In this document: one piece after another, positions 34,622-42,081 of the stretch | Position numbering within the stretch: the stretch's first letter is position 1 | How the letters are laid out: every line of letters starts with the position of its first letter | DNA from: Pratylenchus scribneri | Lineage: Eukaryota > Nematoda > Chromadorea > Rhabditida > Pratylenchidae | Assembly (NCBI GenBank): GCA_030063045.1 | Contig: JAQSEB010000008.1 | Span: 1,612,001 to 1,676,000, forward strand | Direction: 5' to 3' | DNA length: 64,000 nt | Made by a program: the position numbers and the translations under genes | The notes under the pieces: model-generated | Told to the model about the DNA's origin: nothing | Database searches by the model: none | What the model saw: only the letters and a program-made list of their open reading frames with translations

Positions 34622-37600
34622 TCAATTCGATTCAAACCCTCCGCCAGTGTTGGATGTTCCCGGTTGTTGTGGCGAAAAATTAGGAACAGAGGATTTCAGT
34701 GTCTAAAAATTCAAATTCTTTTTTCTTCTGATTGTATTTATTTTACCTCAACCAAATCGTTCATTTTGACGGCCGGTCCCAAAGTCATTCGCATTTGTTG
34801 CCGAAATGTTTCCACATTGAAGAGAAGGAAACTGGACCCGTCCACCTCCTTTCATATTCAAATAGATCATTAAAATATTCCAATTTTACCTCATTCCTAA
34901 GTCGATTTGCCATTTCCATTTGGCCGCATTGGCCAACCCATTCGGCCAATTGTTCACAATTCCAATTGGTTGGATCGCTCATAATTGGTGGATATTTTGT
35001 TGTCATTGGTCGATTGGCGCCAAATTGCTGCTGTTGCTGTGCGGCCATTTGATACATAAAATATGGGGAGGCGGCCATCATTTGTTGTTGATATTCTTGG
35101 AATGAATTGGCCGCAAAGAATTGTTGATTTGGCGGATGGGAATGTGAGAAGAATGGCGAGGAGGAGGTAGAGGTCGATGGATAGCCAAATCCTCCAGTTG
35201 TGCCCATTCCGAACATTTGTTGCTGTAACTAAATTAAATCAAATGAATAAATAAATTAAAATTCCCAAAACTGACAATCATTTGATGGGAATGCGCAAAT
35301 GGTGGATAATGATGTTGTTGCTGATTTGGATTGGGCGGTTGCACAAATTGAAAGGGTGGTTGTTGATGAGGATGCATATTATTTGGTGGCACTGTGCCCA
35401 CTCGACGGTCCATTACCCCTCCTCCTCCACCAATATTTGTCGATGAACATTTTGCCTCATTTGGCAGTGAATTTGGCAATTCATTCGAACAAACTTTGAA
35501 TTTGAATGGAATAAATTTACTTAAAAAAATTGGCTAACCTTCCCCAATTCGAATTCCCATCATTTTGTTGGCCTCCTCCAATAATGCAGCATTTTTTGGT
35601 TTGACAATTGGCAATTTGGCCCCTAAGAATTTTTCCAAATTTGAATATTTCTTATTGAATCCATCACTGCTACCCAATTTAATCCATCTTCTCTTCCTTG
35701 ACAATAAGGGCGGTGGCGTCTTAATCTGAAAAATGACAATTTTTTTTGTGCTAGGAATTCATTTACCCGTTCTTCGTCCTCCTCCTCTTCGCCCCTTTCC
35801 ATTTGTTCATTGGCGTTCAATGCGGAATTTTGTGTTGATGTCTGCGATGATGATTGGGTTGTGGCCGTACTGCATTGACTTTCTTGGCTCCATTCCTCCT
35901 CCGGAATCAAATGTGGCGGTGCATTTTGTTCCAATCTATTAAAATTGAATTTTTCAATAAATCCCAAAAGGCTACATGACACTTGGTCCAAAGACCATTT
36001 GGTCCAAAGGAATAAAAACTACCATTTGGTCCAAAGTAATAAAAACTACCTTTTGGTCCAAAACCATTTGGTCCAAAATTCATTTGGTCCAAAAGGCATA
36101 AAATAATCATTTGGTCCAAAATGGAAAATAAGAGCTATACTTGGTTAAATAAATTCCGATTTCAACTATACAGGGGTTTTCGACCATCCCGGATCCGAAT
36201 CTGGCATCAGATTTTGGAAATTCGGTAATTTCAATAAACTATTGGCAGATAATTTAACGAAGGGAAAAATCAAGATATATTTGGTGAATTGGAAAAATCT
36301 AGTTTAAAATTAATCGTACCATTGACACAAAAAATTTGTACCATTGAAGTAAAAAGTTGTGCCAAAGACTTAAATGTTTGCCATCGATTATTGAGGCTGT
36401 CGAATCCTCTAAAAATTTGTTTAAACAAATATGTAAAGATTTTATGCAAAAATAAAATAAATTGATCAAAATTGCAAAAATAAAAGATAATAGTTGAATA
36501 AATGGAAAATAATATAATTAATAATCGTGATCTGTGTAATCGGAAGAGATATTGGAAGTGCTGGCCAAATTAAATGTTGCATTTGGGGACAGAGCAATTG
36601 GCGCTTTAATATTACGGATCAATTCAGATGTAGCTCCAGTGTTTTCTTCATCCTCTCCAATAAATAATTCATCATCTTCGGCATAATTTTCTTCAGCTTC
36701 CTCTTCATTGTTCTCTTCGCCATCTCCATTGTTTTCTTGACATTCAACTTCATCCACGATCAAATCATCCTCCAATCCTTGCAATGCCAACGAAACTGCT
36801 TGCAGAAAAACACGGATGCATTGGTCATTGAGAAGTGGAGCTTGTATAAGAGCCTTCAAGCGTGCATCCATCGTTCGATATTCAACTCGTCGATAAATTC
36901 GGTCTGGTTGTAATTTAAGTTCGCGGACTTCATTCATTTTCCGGCTATCATATTTGCGAAGTTTGATCAGAAAATCATGCATTCTTGGATGGGTGCAGTT
37001 TCTCTTCTATAAATAAAATGAATATTTTGAGATTTATGAAAATTAAAAATGGTACATGGCAAGAAGTCCGTTACAATGAACCATTTTTCCCAAAATGGTA
37101 CATTCTATGAAAAAATTGTACATGGCAAGAAGTCCGTTACAATGAACCATTTTTCCCAAAATGGTACATTCTATGAAAAAATGGTACATGGCAAGAAGTC
37201 CGTTACAATGAACCATTTTTCCCAAAATGGTACATTCTATTGCAGTAGGGATTTCCAAATCATTTTCAAGACGTTCCTTGTAATTGTTCAAACGATGTTC
37301 AATCTGAATTATATATATCTATATATATATATATATATATTTATTTATTTATCAAAATAACGATTCACTGTGATAAACTTCAAAAAATGGTTCATTAATA
37401 AAAATGGTTCATTTGATAAAAAAAACGGTTTAAATGAACCATATTTCATCTCCAAATCGTGCTTAGTTCATTCATAAAAATTTATTTTAAATTCGATTTA
37501 TATTATTTTTACGTTCTTATTACATTCAAATATTAAATTCGTTGACAAAATTCTAATCAAATCATTTACCTCTTGTCCATGTGTTTTTGCCAAATGCCTG

Positions 37601-40600
37601 TGCGCTTTCTTGTTGATGGTACCCTCTTCATAATTTTCACTGCTTGTAATTGCCTTGACTGGACATCGCTTTGGTGGTCTCGATTCTTCACATCGCCAAT
37701 AGGCTTTGGTTTTCGTCTTAGAATGCAGAAGAAAACGAAAACCTTAAATATAATTAGTATTTAATATGTAACATAGTCGAATTTACCATCATGCCACAAG
37801 TCACATTTTCCTTTTGTTGTTTTTTGGATTTCAAAGCGCACTTTGCCAGCATCTTGTTGAGGAATTCCTGCTTCATTCACTGTTTCTACATCGATTTCAC
37901 CATCCGATTCCGGCAATGCAACAACAGGACGTAGACGTTTCTTAGTGTCTGCTCCTAGGAGTAATTGACGGGCATTCATTTCGCTTAAGATTACAAATTA
38001 ATTAATAATAAAATATAACAAAAGACTAACAATAGTTTTGCCGACGGCTGCAATTAATGATTTGTTGAAATTTTGGCCAACGGCTGCTTTCGATGATTTG
38101 TTGGAATATTTGGCCGGCGGCTGCTTTCGATGATTTTGTGGAAATTTTGGCCGGCGGCTGCTTTCGATGATTTTGTGGAAATTTTGCCGACGGCTGCAAT
38201 TGATGATATTGAAATTTGCAGCACGAAAAATTATATTTTTATAATCTATAAATGTTGGATAAGTGATTATAATATTGCAAATAAAATAATGATTTTGATT
38301 TTGGATGAACATGAGATAAGCATATATCTATGAGTGTGCAAATATTTAAATGTTTATTCAAAAATATTTTTGTTTTTCAAAAAACAGATAAGGGATAATT
38401 AAATTAACTGCTTTACTAATAAATCAATAAAATATTTTAAGTATTTTTATTTATATTGCTATATTGCCAATATATAAAAATTGTGGACCAAATTACTATT
38501 TTTTGTCTTTTGGACTAAATGATTTTTGGACCAAATGGTTTTGGACCAAAAGGTAATTTTTACACCTTTGGACCAAATGCCCGTTTTATGGTTTTGGACC
38601 AAATGGATTTTGGACCAAATGGTCTTTGGACCAAATGTCTGGACGCCTCCCAAAAATGTGAATTATTTTTACCTTTCAGCCCGTTGTTTTGTGTTTGCTC
38701 GAGTTTTCATTAATCTGGTGCGCATTCCACTGGATTCATAAACAGTAATTCGATTGATCCTTCGTTTTTGGCCATTTCCTTCTTCTTCTTCCTCTTTCTT
38801 TCTTTGTTTATTTGTCATTTCCCGGTTAATTTGTTTGATATCCGCCAAAAACTTAAAAATTATTTTTATAAATTTAATTTATTATTTTTTATTAAAACTT
38901 TGTTTAAAAGGCATTTGGATGTGGTGGAATTGATCATTTGTGGATGGCCGGATGATTGAAAATAGGCCAATTTGGCCATTGAATTGGAACATTCGCATTC
39001 AGCCAATTTTTCCAGCGAAAAAAGATTTGGGCATGCGTCCAAACGAATAAGTAACTGAAAAATTATTTAATTAATTAATTTTATTTAGTAAATATAAAAT
39101 TATTTAATAAATAAAAACAGTTCTCGCAGTTGGTTTTCATCCCCAAAGCCAGAAAAAATTATCAACAGCCACTGGGAATCGAACCCGGACCAGACTTTTC
39201 ATTTCCTCTTAAATTAAAACGAGCGATATACCAATGCGCTAAATATACATATATTCCCGTCCCTCTAGTTATCCTATTAATGGTAATGTAATAAAAAGGA
39301 TATAAGCACACAAATTTGCATAGAATTCTCACGAGTGTTTTTACTACCCTAGAGGATGAGTATTGATCTATTTTCCCATTTTTATTAATACAAAAGAACA
39401 AACCATTGCCAACCATGCGGGGAATTGTTTTGCCTGATTGCAAATTTCCACATTGGCCATAATTCGCCTTTCCTTATGCCTTAAAACATATTAAATAATC
39501 ATTAAATTTGGCAAAAACCTACTTCAATTGGACCAACATCAATTGGGAATGGTTGTTTGCATTTTCATTGACAATTTTGAGCATTTCGGCCATTTCTTTT
39601 GGTCGATTTGCGCACAAAATGATATTTTTGAAGATTTCATTGAGCAAATGAGGCAAAGGACCAGGCCCAAAATGGAATGGAAGTGAGGCCAATTTAGTTT
39701 TGCAAAGGAATGGGCCAGAAAAGCAACCAATGTTCAGATGAATTTTGGGAAGCCAACGATCGTCTTAAAAAGAAGAAATTGAATTAAATGTGAATTAAGT
39801 GGTTAAAATTGACTGACCATCCATCCAAATTTTGGGCATAAATGCCTTTGGATTGGGCAAAATGGTGGAGGAGGATTCGTCCGAATTGTATGTCTCATCA
39901 AAATGACGTCGTTCCAAAGCCAATTCCGTTGGAATTTTGATGGGCATTGCCGAAATAAGTGAATTTGGGAATTCGTTGGCCGAACCATTGCGAAAAAGAT
40001 GAAGTGAACTAAAATTTGAAGGAAATTAATTAAAAAATTAAATAAAAAACTGACTGAATTGAGTAAATTTTTGGCAAATTGTAAGGCCCTTTTGAGGACT
40101 CTGAATGGACCCAAATGAAATGACGATGGCTTCGGAGGATGGCCGAAGGAGAATGTTGGTAGATCAATGGGGATACGGAGGATGCATTTTGGACCTGAAA
40201 ATTAATTAAATTAATTGAATAATTTTAATTCGAATTTCAACTTACTTCACAATAACGAATGCAATCCAACTTTTTGGCCATCATTTTTGGCAAATCAAAC
40301 AATGCGTCCGGAGCAAATTTGAATGAAATTTTTGCATTCTCCTCCGCCGACTTTTCCATCAATTCTTTGAGTCGATTTCGCAATGCCGAATACGAAAATG
40401 AATTGGAATCGGCGCCGCCTTTCATTCCTGCAAATATTTTTGAATAAATAAAATTAGGATGATTTCATATATTCCAATTAACCTTCCGGAAAAACAAGTC
40501 GAATTTGATTTTTGAAGCACCAGCCAAGTGGAAGCAGTTCCGGCGAACATCGATGGCATAAATATTCCTCATTTTTGGCATCCACCGTTGAGACATTCCG

Positions 40601-42081
40601 AATTGGTCGAACCTGGAAAATAGAGAAAATTAATTTTAATTGGAACAAAATTTATACCTTAAAATAATGTTGATTGCAAATTTCACTAACAAAGGCTGGC
40701 ACAAAAGTGAGTCGATTGAGCGGGTCGAGCATTTCCAAAATCATTCCAACCTGCAAAAATTCATATTTTAAATTCCATTTTAAATTAAATTACCTCAAAT
40801 TTGTGTTCCTGAATTGGTCGAAAGGTGAAAAGCCAATTTGGAACCATTGAAATTGATTTTGGTAGAATATTGCTGAATCCATTTTGCAATTTATAACGTG
40901 GAAAAATTTGATGATTAAAAGCAGCAAATTTTGAATTTTGGCATTCGGTCCATCCAAACTAATTTAAATAATAAATAAATTTAAATAATAATTCAAACCG
41001 GATGGCACCGTTCATTGCAAATATGGATCCACTCTTTTTGTTGATTTTTTGTTCCAAATTCGGCCAAAATCATTCCAAATTTGCATTTCACAATTCGAAC
41101 CAAATGAACCAAATTGGCATTTTTGGCATCATGCAGTTCAAATAATTGGCCAATCTGCGAAAAAAAAAACATAAATAATTCAAAAATATGGAAGGAATAC
41201 CTCGATGAAATAGTGCAATGGTCGCGACAGCCAATTCCGATGATTGGCCAAAAAATTTGAATATTCTTTGTCAATGCTAAAATTAAAATATTTTCTATTT
41301 AATTATTTTTGTTAACCTTTTCCATTCCTCTGCACTCATCATTTTGGCATCTTCGAATTTCTCTTTTTCCGTTCCCTCAATTTCCAATGGCAATAATTCC
41401 AATTCGGATATTGGAAAGAAATTCTTGTAAGGCAGTGAAGTTGGTGGAATATTATTGGTCGATTCCTCATTTTCGACTTTTTCCATTGAGCAGAAATGAA
41501 AGCCATTGTCGGACGTTATCATTTTCGGTTTCTTCACTTTTCCCATCCAATTGATTTCAATAATTGCCTCATTTTTGATTGTTATTTGGATTCGTCCCTT
41601 GAGCATTTGTTCCGCTTTGTTGCCATCCAATTTATGATGAACATGAACCAAACTAAAAATCAAATGATTTTATTTTTAAATTCAATTAATTAAATTATTA
41701 CCGTCCGGGTCGGAAAATATGCTCTCCAAGTGTTCGCTCCACAAAATGTTGATGTTGGAATAGATGACCATCCACAGCTGGCTGTCCGGCTCTCAATTCT
41801 AGATATTTTTCCCAATCCATATTTGCACTGGCATTGCTATTTGACTGCGATGTAGAGGGGGCTGGTGGTGCCTCTTTTACTAAATTTGAATTATTATTGT
41901 GATGACAGATTTTTTTTTGCTATAATTTTCGGATAATCTCACTAATTTTAAATGCTTTTTTAATATTTTAATCAAATTTTAATAAGAAAAAGAAACCTTT
42001 GATCATTTCTTGTTTGCTCTGCACATTTTTGCTGGTTTCTGGCTTTCTCTTCAATGAGCTCTTCTCTGATGATTCAATCAT
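34622..42081 (-). CDS. SFMBT/Scm-type Polycomb protein (MBT repeats, SLED, SAM)
   Basis: Twenty-one exons join in frame to about 1159 aa, starting at the ATG at 42081. Residues about 60-410 hold two to three degenerate MBT repeats (NERCHPVFGWTE; HKFEVGMILEMLDPLNRL; SPELLPLGWC). Residues about 580-685 match a SLED domain (CFSGPFLCKTKLASLP, FGPGPLPHLL). A Q/P-rich linker precedes a C-terminal SAM domain at about 1075-1135 (WNCEQLAEWVGQCG, DGSSFLLFNVE, LGPAVKMNDLVE). MBT-SLED-SAM is the order in SFMBT and Scm, Polycomb group proteins that read methylated histones and polymerise through SAM. The intron 38672-35936 holds a FLYWCH-carrying DNA element; the intron 39403-39055 holds a tRNA-like SINE. 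One exon end near 41317 may be off by a base. Confidence 0.87.
35970..36122. repeat. Left TIR with TTTGGTCCAAA array
   Basis: Seven copies of (C)ATTTGGTCCAAA-like words in about 150 bp, separated by short AATAAAAACTAC spacers. The array is the inverted counterpart of 38495-38647. Confidence 0.88.
36518..37979 (-). CDS. FLYWCH zinc-finger protein inside the DNA element
   Basis: Four exons (37979-37787, 37742-37570, 37303-37214, 37006-36518) give 314 aa. Residues about 64-123 are a FLYWCH finger: FRFLLHSK, AYWRCEE, RCPVKA, HRHLAKTHG. The C-terminal half is a helical region (DFLIKLRKYDSRKMNEVREL, RALKALIQAP-like) ending in an acidic tail. There is no DDE or SWIM domain. FLYWCH fingers occur both in MULE-type transposases and in nematode transcription factors (FLH family), so this could be a transposon accessory DNA-binding protein or a captured regulator. 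Exon 3 can end at any of three equivalent donors inside a 66-bp triplication, adding 0, 22 or 44 residues. Confidence 0.78.
37041..37240. repeat. 66-bp tandem triplication at the FLYWCH exon 3 donor
   Basis: Three nearly identical 66-bp copies (AATGGTACATGGCAAGAAG at each start; two near-matching CATGGTACC/ATGGTTCAT motifs). On the minus strand each copy is an open 22-codon unit containing the donor AAAATG/GTTCAT in phase 0. Confidence 0.93.
37307..37342. repeat. TA dinucleotide microsatellite
   Basis: A run of about 36 bp of (TA)n interrupted once, in the FLYWCH intron just before the exon 3 acceptor. Confidence 0.9.
38036..38216. repeat. About 42-bp tandem repeats upstream of the FLYWCH gene
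   Basis: Four to five imperfect copies with core GGC(G/A)GCTGCTTTCGATGATTT and TTGGCCGGCGGCTGC. They lie 57-237 bp upstream of the FLYWCH start codon on the minus strand, inside the element, and are much more GC-rich than the surroundings. They could be promoter or protein-binding repeats. Confidence 0.88.
38495..38647. repeat. Right TIR with TTTGGACCAAA array
   Basis: Seven to eight TTTGGACCAAATG-like words, inverted relative to the left TIR. The target-site repeat TCCCAAAA follows at 38648-38655. Confidence 0.88.
39165..39245 (-). repeat. tRNA-derived SINE-like sequence (copy 1)
   Basis: On the minus strand a pol III A-box-like TAGCGCATTGGTATATCGC is followed after about 35 bp by a B box, GGTTCGATTCC. 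The acceptor arms do not pair, so it is not a functional tRNA. A second sequence with the same A-box region lies at 55728-55812. It sits in an SFMBT intron. Confidence 0.7.

Follow-up and report, generated by a model that had tools for sequence, protein, structure and literature searches.

A probable internal-deletion derivative of a FLYWCH-bearing Mutator-superfamily transposon in a short intron of Pratylenchus scribneri

The window, that is, the whole stretch of 64,000 nucleotides analysed here (Pratylenchus scribneri, assembly GCA_030063045.1, contig JAQSEB010000008.1, positions 1,612,001 to 1,676,000 of the forward strand), contains a mobile element of 2678 bp at positions 35970-38647, located in a short intron of a host gene. 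Inverted arrays of a short word form its ends, and the interior carries the predicted remains of a gene for a FLYWCH zinc finger protein. The features are listed below by window position; other copies of the element are designated by L numbers and contigs by C numbers, the contig of the window being C8.

35936..38672, minus strand: host intron with the element, its donor GT at 38672 and its acceptor AG ending at 35936 (splice sites predicted)
35962..35969, no strand: left target site duplication TCCCAAAA
35970..36122, plus strand: left terminal inverted repeat, with end word GGCTACATGACA followed by the TTTGGTCCAAA array (35982-36120)
36518..37006, minus strand: remnant of exon 10, the last exon, from comparison with the transposase gene
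37043..37303, minus strand: 5' remainder of exon 3 running directly into what was the last intron, a predicted read-through giving a 208-aa product
37045..37242, no strand: three 66-bp tandem units, like units in the last intron of the full-length copy L009
37240..37241, no strand: deletion junction, at which about 1.7 kb of L010 is missing, a gap that takes in the remainder of exon 3 and reaches the last intron
37570..37742, minus strand: exon 2, predicted, bearing most of the FLYWCH zinc finger
37787..37979, minus strand: exon 1 (MNARQ...), predicted, with donor and acceptor sites conserved in ten full-length copies
38036..38207, no strand: 36-37-bp tandem units past the 5' end of the gene, on the side of the right array
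38480..38647, minus strand: right terminal inverted repeat, with end word GGCGTCCAGACA (minus strand) and an array at 38482-38635
38648..38655, no strand: right target site duplication TCCCAAAA

The left array is composed of TTTGGTCCAAA and the right array of its complement, giving long terminal inverted repeats with end regions of 153 and 168 bp (paired arms of up to 108 nt, 87%); being built from short tandem repeats, these inverted ends also have a foldback-like character. The inverted arrays, first noticed in a first-pass annotation made from the window alone, stand far above shuffled expectation: with at most one mismatch, TTTGGTCCAAA matches the window 32 times, against 5.79 expected and a maximum of 14 in 100 shuffles. 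These 32 matches correspond to 20 places, of which the end arrays together contain 15 and the remainder of the window 5. Throughout the genome, TTTGGTCCAAA pairs spaced 1-20 bases apart were counted 78 and 85 times, and a reversed control pattern 0 times. The 8-bp flanking repeat reported in the same annotation is likewise present on both sides of the element. A separate repeat, in which two TTTGGTCCAAA words are linked by one 20-bp spacer, ATGGCCGCGCAGCGAAAAAA, was observed at C12:1734142, C23:6118317, C41:2824940, C54:1305019, and C79:1281240; it may be a distant subfamily or another element.

With the element, the host intron measures 2737 bp, and removal of the element together with one copy of the duplication leaves 51 bp. 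The annotation had correctly anticipated a short restored intron, but its figure of 59 bp included both copies of the duplication. The left flank was located on three contigs, C8, C59, and C31, and on the latter two the right flank adjoins it without the element, in introns of 43 bp (C59) and 45 bp (C31) that share the intron ends of the window contig. Empty-site alleles, which the annotation had proposed to look for in other strains, are therefore found in the animal's own genome, and together with other copies and target duplications they corroborate the proposal of a mobile DNA element inside an intron. On C31, one TCCCAAAA lies precisely at the insertion site. On C59 (L036), TCCCAAAA is intact, about 20 bases immediately to its left are replaced, and 3 of the 9 indels over approximately 3 kb fall within 30 bp of the duplication site. 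The replaced stretch may be the scar of an imprecise excision, which is conceivable because C59 is otherwise nearer than C31 to the window contig, or it may be an unrelated intron indel.

The naming of the host gene as a Polycomb gene is not established, its sole support being one mbt-repeat match in the host gene region (window 40993-41298, minus strand) at E 0.029, below the cut-off. Two further observations were made on repeats of this genome. Approximately 90 bp at 39153-39243 resemble the T-arm region of a tRNA and recur at 74-82% identity in at least 37 other genomic places (40 of 47 candidates scored); ARAGORN called no tRNA in this interval, which is perhaps a tRNA-derived short repeat. 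Additionally, SL1-like spliced leader RNA was matched in at least 41 places when the best 50 of 98799 candidates were scored; none of these matches reaches the family cut-off (the strongest has E 8.6e-7), and 14 control genomes gave none, a pattern suggestive of a nematode.

The element is far from alone: with 40 of 130 candidates scored, a search of its own genome returned at least 117 matching pieces, a figure that includes both the window and matches of one array to another. An absence of further copies, which the annotation had named as a refutation, is thus contradicted. Thirty fetched stretches were inspected along with the window, 31 in all, of which L019 and L047 are one and the same copy. 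Both ends are present in 25 of the 31 and were not called in L018, L019, L020, L041, L042, and L047. Perfect 8-bp target duplications flank 22 of the 25 two-ended copies; the call is absent in the other three, which have mismatched flanks (L015, L027) or are cut at the edge (L013). L025 and L045, having identical flanks and 100% identity, are probably a single duplicated insertion. At different sites, L022, L043, and L044 are 99.95-99.98% identical across 4400 bp. Over its left 1.27 kb, the window copy shares 99.8-99.9% identity with L010, L011, and L012, and its right part is less close (98.3% to L011, 94.2% to L009). Judged from these sequences, the family is one that has moved recently. The number of words per end, counted from a word pattern that may miss or add one, is 7-9 for the TTTGGTCCAAA type (11 complete copies), with the exception of the right end of L014 (4), and 6-8 in the two other end-word types.

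Full-length copies span approximately 4.3-5.4 kb and contain a predicted ten-exon gene for a transposase with FLYWCH and MULE (DDE) domains. In L009, the ten exons can be spliced without a stop into a predicted protein of 708 aa, in which FLYWCH (PF04500) is recognized at residues 53-114 (E 2.1e-8) and MULE (PF10551) at 238-330 (E 2.8e-13, 50.6 bits against a cut-off of 27.6); single exons, unspliced, remain below the MULE cut-off. The catalytic residues D241, D303, and E539 are all present, as are C324xxH327 and W521. In a four-row alignment of the model with three database relatives, D303, C324, H327, W521, and E539 are kept in four of four rows, and D241 in all three rows that cover it. The homologue search with the full-length protein returned 3 of 7992 candidates scored, and the closest relative listed is a Globodera rostochiensis protein whose alignment covers 55% of the query at 42% identity; the model's C-terminal part is matched by it as well.

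When the exons were transferred to ten further copies, all 90 donors read GT and 89 of the 90 acceptors AG. Three of these copies (L022, L043, L044) could be read without an internal stop; a stop was met in the other seven, with lengths that are no multiple of three in five, and the plain carrying-over of exon ends may account for some of these stops. The exons absent from the window copy are carried, whole or largely, by L009, L010, L020-L023, L025-L027, L038, and L043-L045. In L009, the right array is separated from the gene by about 1 kb (811-1834) that lacks similarity to the window element and is probably a nested insertion.

Compared with these relatives, the window copy retains exon 1, exon 2, 26% of exon 3, and the last exon, and the approximately 1.7 kb missing relative to L010 includes the catalytic core; nothing in it matches exons 4-7 and 9, the site of the catalytic residues. 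The predicted product of 208 aa has an open reading that stops inside the 66-bp repeats, and FLYWCH (PF04500) is recognized in the spliced reading at E 1.2e-8. The annotation described the cargo as a FLYWCH protein with no transposase; the FLYWCH domain is the N-terminus of the element's own transposase and not a stand-alone cargo, because full-length relatives continue the FLYWCH exons into the transposase gene. In the exon tally of the 25 complete copies, all ten exons are detectable in 12 (L010 with 76% of exon 9). Four copies, the window copy, L011, L024, and L039, have kept the FLYWCH exons and lost the core through different deletions; exons 5-7, where the first two catalytic residues are encoded, are wholly or almost wholly gone from these four (17% of exon 5 is left in L039). 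One copy (L046) has the core without FLYWCH, and eight have neither.

The window element is thus almost certainly a non-autonomous internal-deletion derivative of a multi-copy DNA transposon of the Mutator superfamily, of the Phantom/Muta-like kind. A MULE DDE domain in full-length relatives, 8-bp duplications, and long inverted ends place the family in Mutator, and in the available portion of PMC6446971 MULE target duplications are given as 8-11 bp. The N-terminal FLYWCH finger on a MULE transposase is a Phantom/Muta feature; for Phantom, the MULE-group table in that portion gives FLYWCH, SWIM, or the absence of a finger, and duplications that are either 8-10 bp or left unstated. Phantom membership is a reading of domain make-up. 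In the proposed mechanism, the full-length transposase would bind the end arrays through its FLYWCH finger, a binding that is plausible for such transposases, would cut at the GGC...GCC ends with its DDE core, and would insert with an 8-bp staggered cut. Acting in trans on deleted copies that retain their ends, it would have placed the window copy, or its full-length parent, into the host intron, and the window copy would be a passenger that keeps the sites.

Conjecturally, the truncated 208-aa protein could bind without cutting, as the KP product of Drosophila P elements does in the account seen in part in PMC12393704. There, as here, an internal deletion takes away catalysis but leaves the ends and the DNA-binding domain in place; KP, however, belongs to another superfamily and is treated in that account as a known repressor, whereas repression is only conceivable here. 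It is a tentative and rather unlikely extension of the deletion reading that the leftover protein of this copy, and perhaps that of similar ones, is produced, sits on the end arrays of related copies, and represses their transposition. The four copies that lost the core through different deletions while keeping the FLYWCH exons are in its favour, and P-element repressors share the two traits of an interrupted transposase and a present DNA-binding domain (same source and portion). The window copy, the one of the four whose frame was read, combines a kept DNA-binding domain, a lost core, and an open frame. Random internal deletions, moreover, will often keep FLYWCH because it lies towards one end, eight of the 25 copies lost both parts and one lost FLYWCH while keeping the core, and the protein search with the truncated form returned 0 of 394 candidates scored at E ≤0.001.

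Three end-word types occur among the copies: TTTGGTCCAAA, TTTGGTCGAAA, and TTTGGCCTAAT along with its variants. With each subfamily represented by one copy (L009, L021, L022), residue identity between them is 70-82% for FLYWCH and 89-92% for MULE. For the same three, dN is 0.164-0.184 in FLYWCH and lower in the MULE part (0.041-0.053), and dS is 0.554-1.324 in FLYWCH and likewise lower in the MULE part (0.282-0.369), the rows with L021 and L010 being unreliable after their stops. There is no sign of positive selection on FLYWCH, as dS is raised along with dN. A broader proposal holds that the family repeatedly loses its core and keeps FLYWCH, that the truncated proteins are trans repressors acting on TTTGGTCCAAA arrays, and that finger and site co-evolve; the pairing is suggested because end words and FLYWCH changed together and the core stayed similar. 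As a whole this proposal is doubtful. The subfamily differences fit a joint change of ends and finger and also fit an exchange of the catalytic part, which may have passed between subfamilies.

The architecture, for which the first-pass annotation knew of no description, is not new, because FLYWCH transposases with tandem-repeat inverted ends are in print both for Tm1 of root-knot nematodes and for Muta1 of a mosquito. Tm1 (Tm1-A and its derivatives, Mutator/Foldback, Meloidogyne), as described in the available part of PMC3169594, resembles the present family in its intron-containing gene for a transposase with N-terminal FLYWCH and MULE, in its composite inverted ends of short tandem repeats with asymmetric end motifs, and in its 8-10-bp duplications, non-autonomous derivatives, and empty sites. 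According to the same excerpt, it differs in having end words of the CGATTCAGTATCGC type instead of the TTTGGTCCAAA type, mostly 9-bp duplications, and a transposase of 496 aa encoded in 7 exons. In that excerpt, the FLYWCH finger of Tm1-A is also said to be missing its final His, whereas C82, C91, H112, and H114 here fit C-C-H-H ligands, an assignment of the present analysis.

Muta1 and other FLYWCH MULEs of Aedes aegypti, as far as the accessible text of PMC5225508 goes, likewise have the finger at the N-terminus, with DDE, CxxH, and W in the same order and at near-equal spacing (D to D, 69 in Muta1 and 62 here; D to H, 24 in both; W to E, 18 in both). They further share a palindromic terminal motif, subterminal tandem repeats, 8-9-bp duplications, and non-autonomous derivatives. 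Across the mosquito families covered in this text, an N-terminal FLYWCH finger is found in 13 of 14 MULE families, and short subterminal tandem repeats in 10 of the 12 with long ends. Sequence and host are different, and Muta1 has been shown to transpose in yeast with duplications of 8-9 bp, whereas the present family is known from sequence. The printed string TTTGGTCCAAA had no literature match with nematodes or transposons in the title (titles only).

That the element is itself a member of the Tm1 family is very improbable, despite the shared transposase type and tandem-repeat ends. The Tm1 tandem end repeat CGATTCAGTATCGC, sought as exact close CGATTCAGTATC pairs, occurs 0 times genome-wide, a search by which diverged repeats would be missed, and where the available Tm1 text gives 9 bp for most duplications, a 496-aa protein, and 7 exons, the present family has 8 bp and a predicted 708 aa and 10 exons; membership was rejected on the end words, the window array being TTTGGTCCAAA. 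A self-targeting element that evolved without a transposase from a FLYWCH gene and its own end sites, as the first-pass annotation had conceived, is suggested by the window copy in isolation only and was rejected as next to impossible, given longer copies with the same ends that bear the rest of the gene, transposase exons included, and the clear deletion junction and retained last transposase exon of the window copy.

As a deletion derivative, the window copy is by itself ordinary. Its family adds to the FLYWCH-bearing Mutator transposons a recently active member in a nematode genome, with array-type ends and three subfamilies that differ in their end words, and the paired differences in end word and FLYWCH constitute a natural series on what a transposon FLYWCH finger reads.
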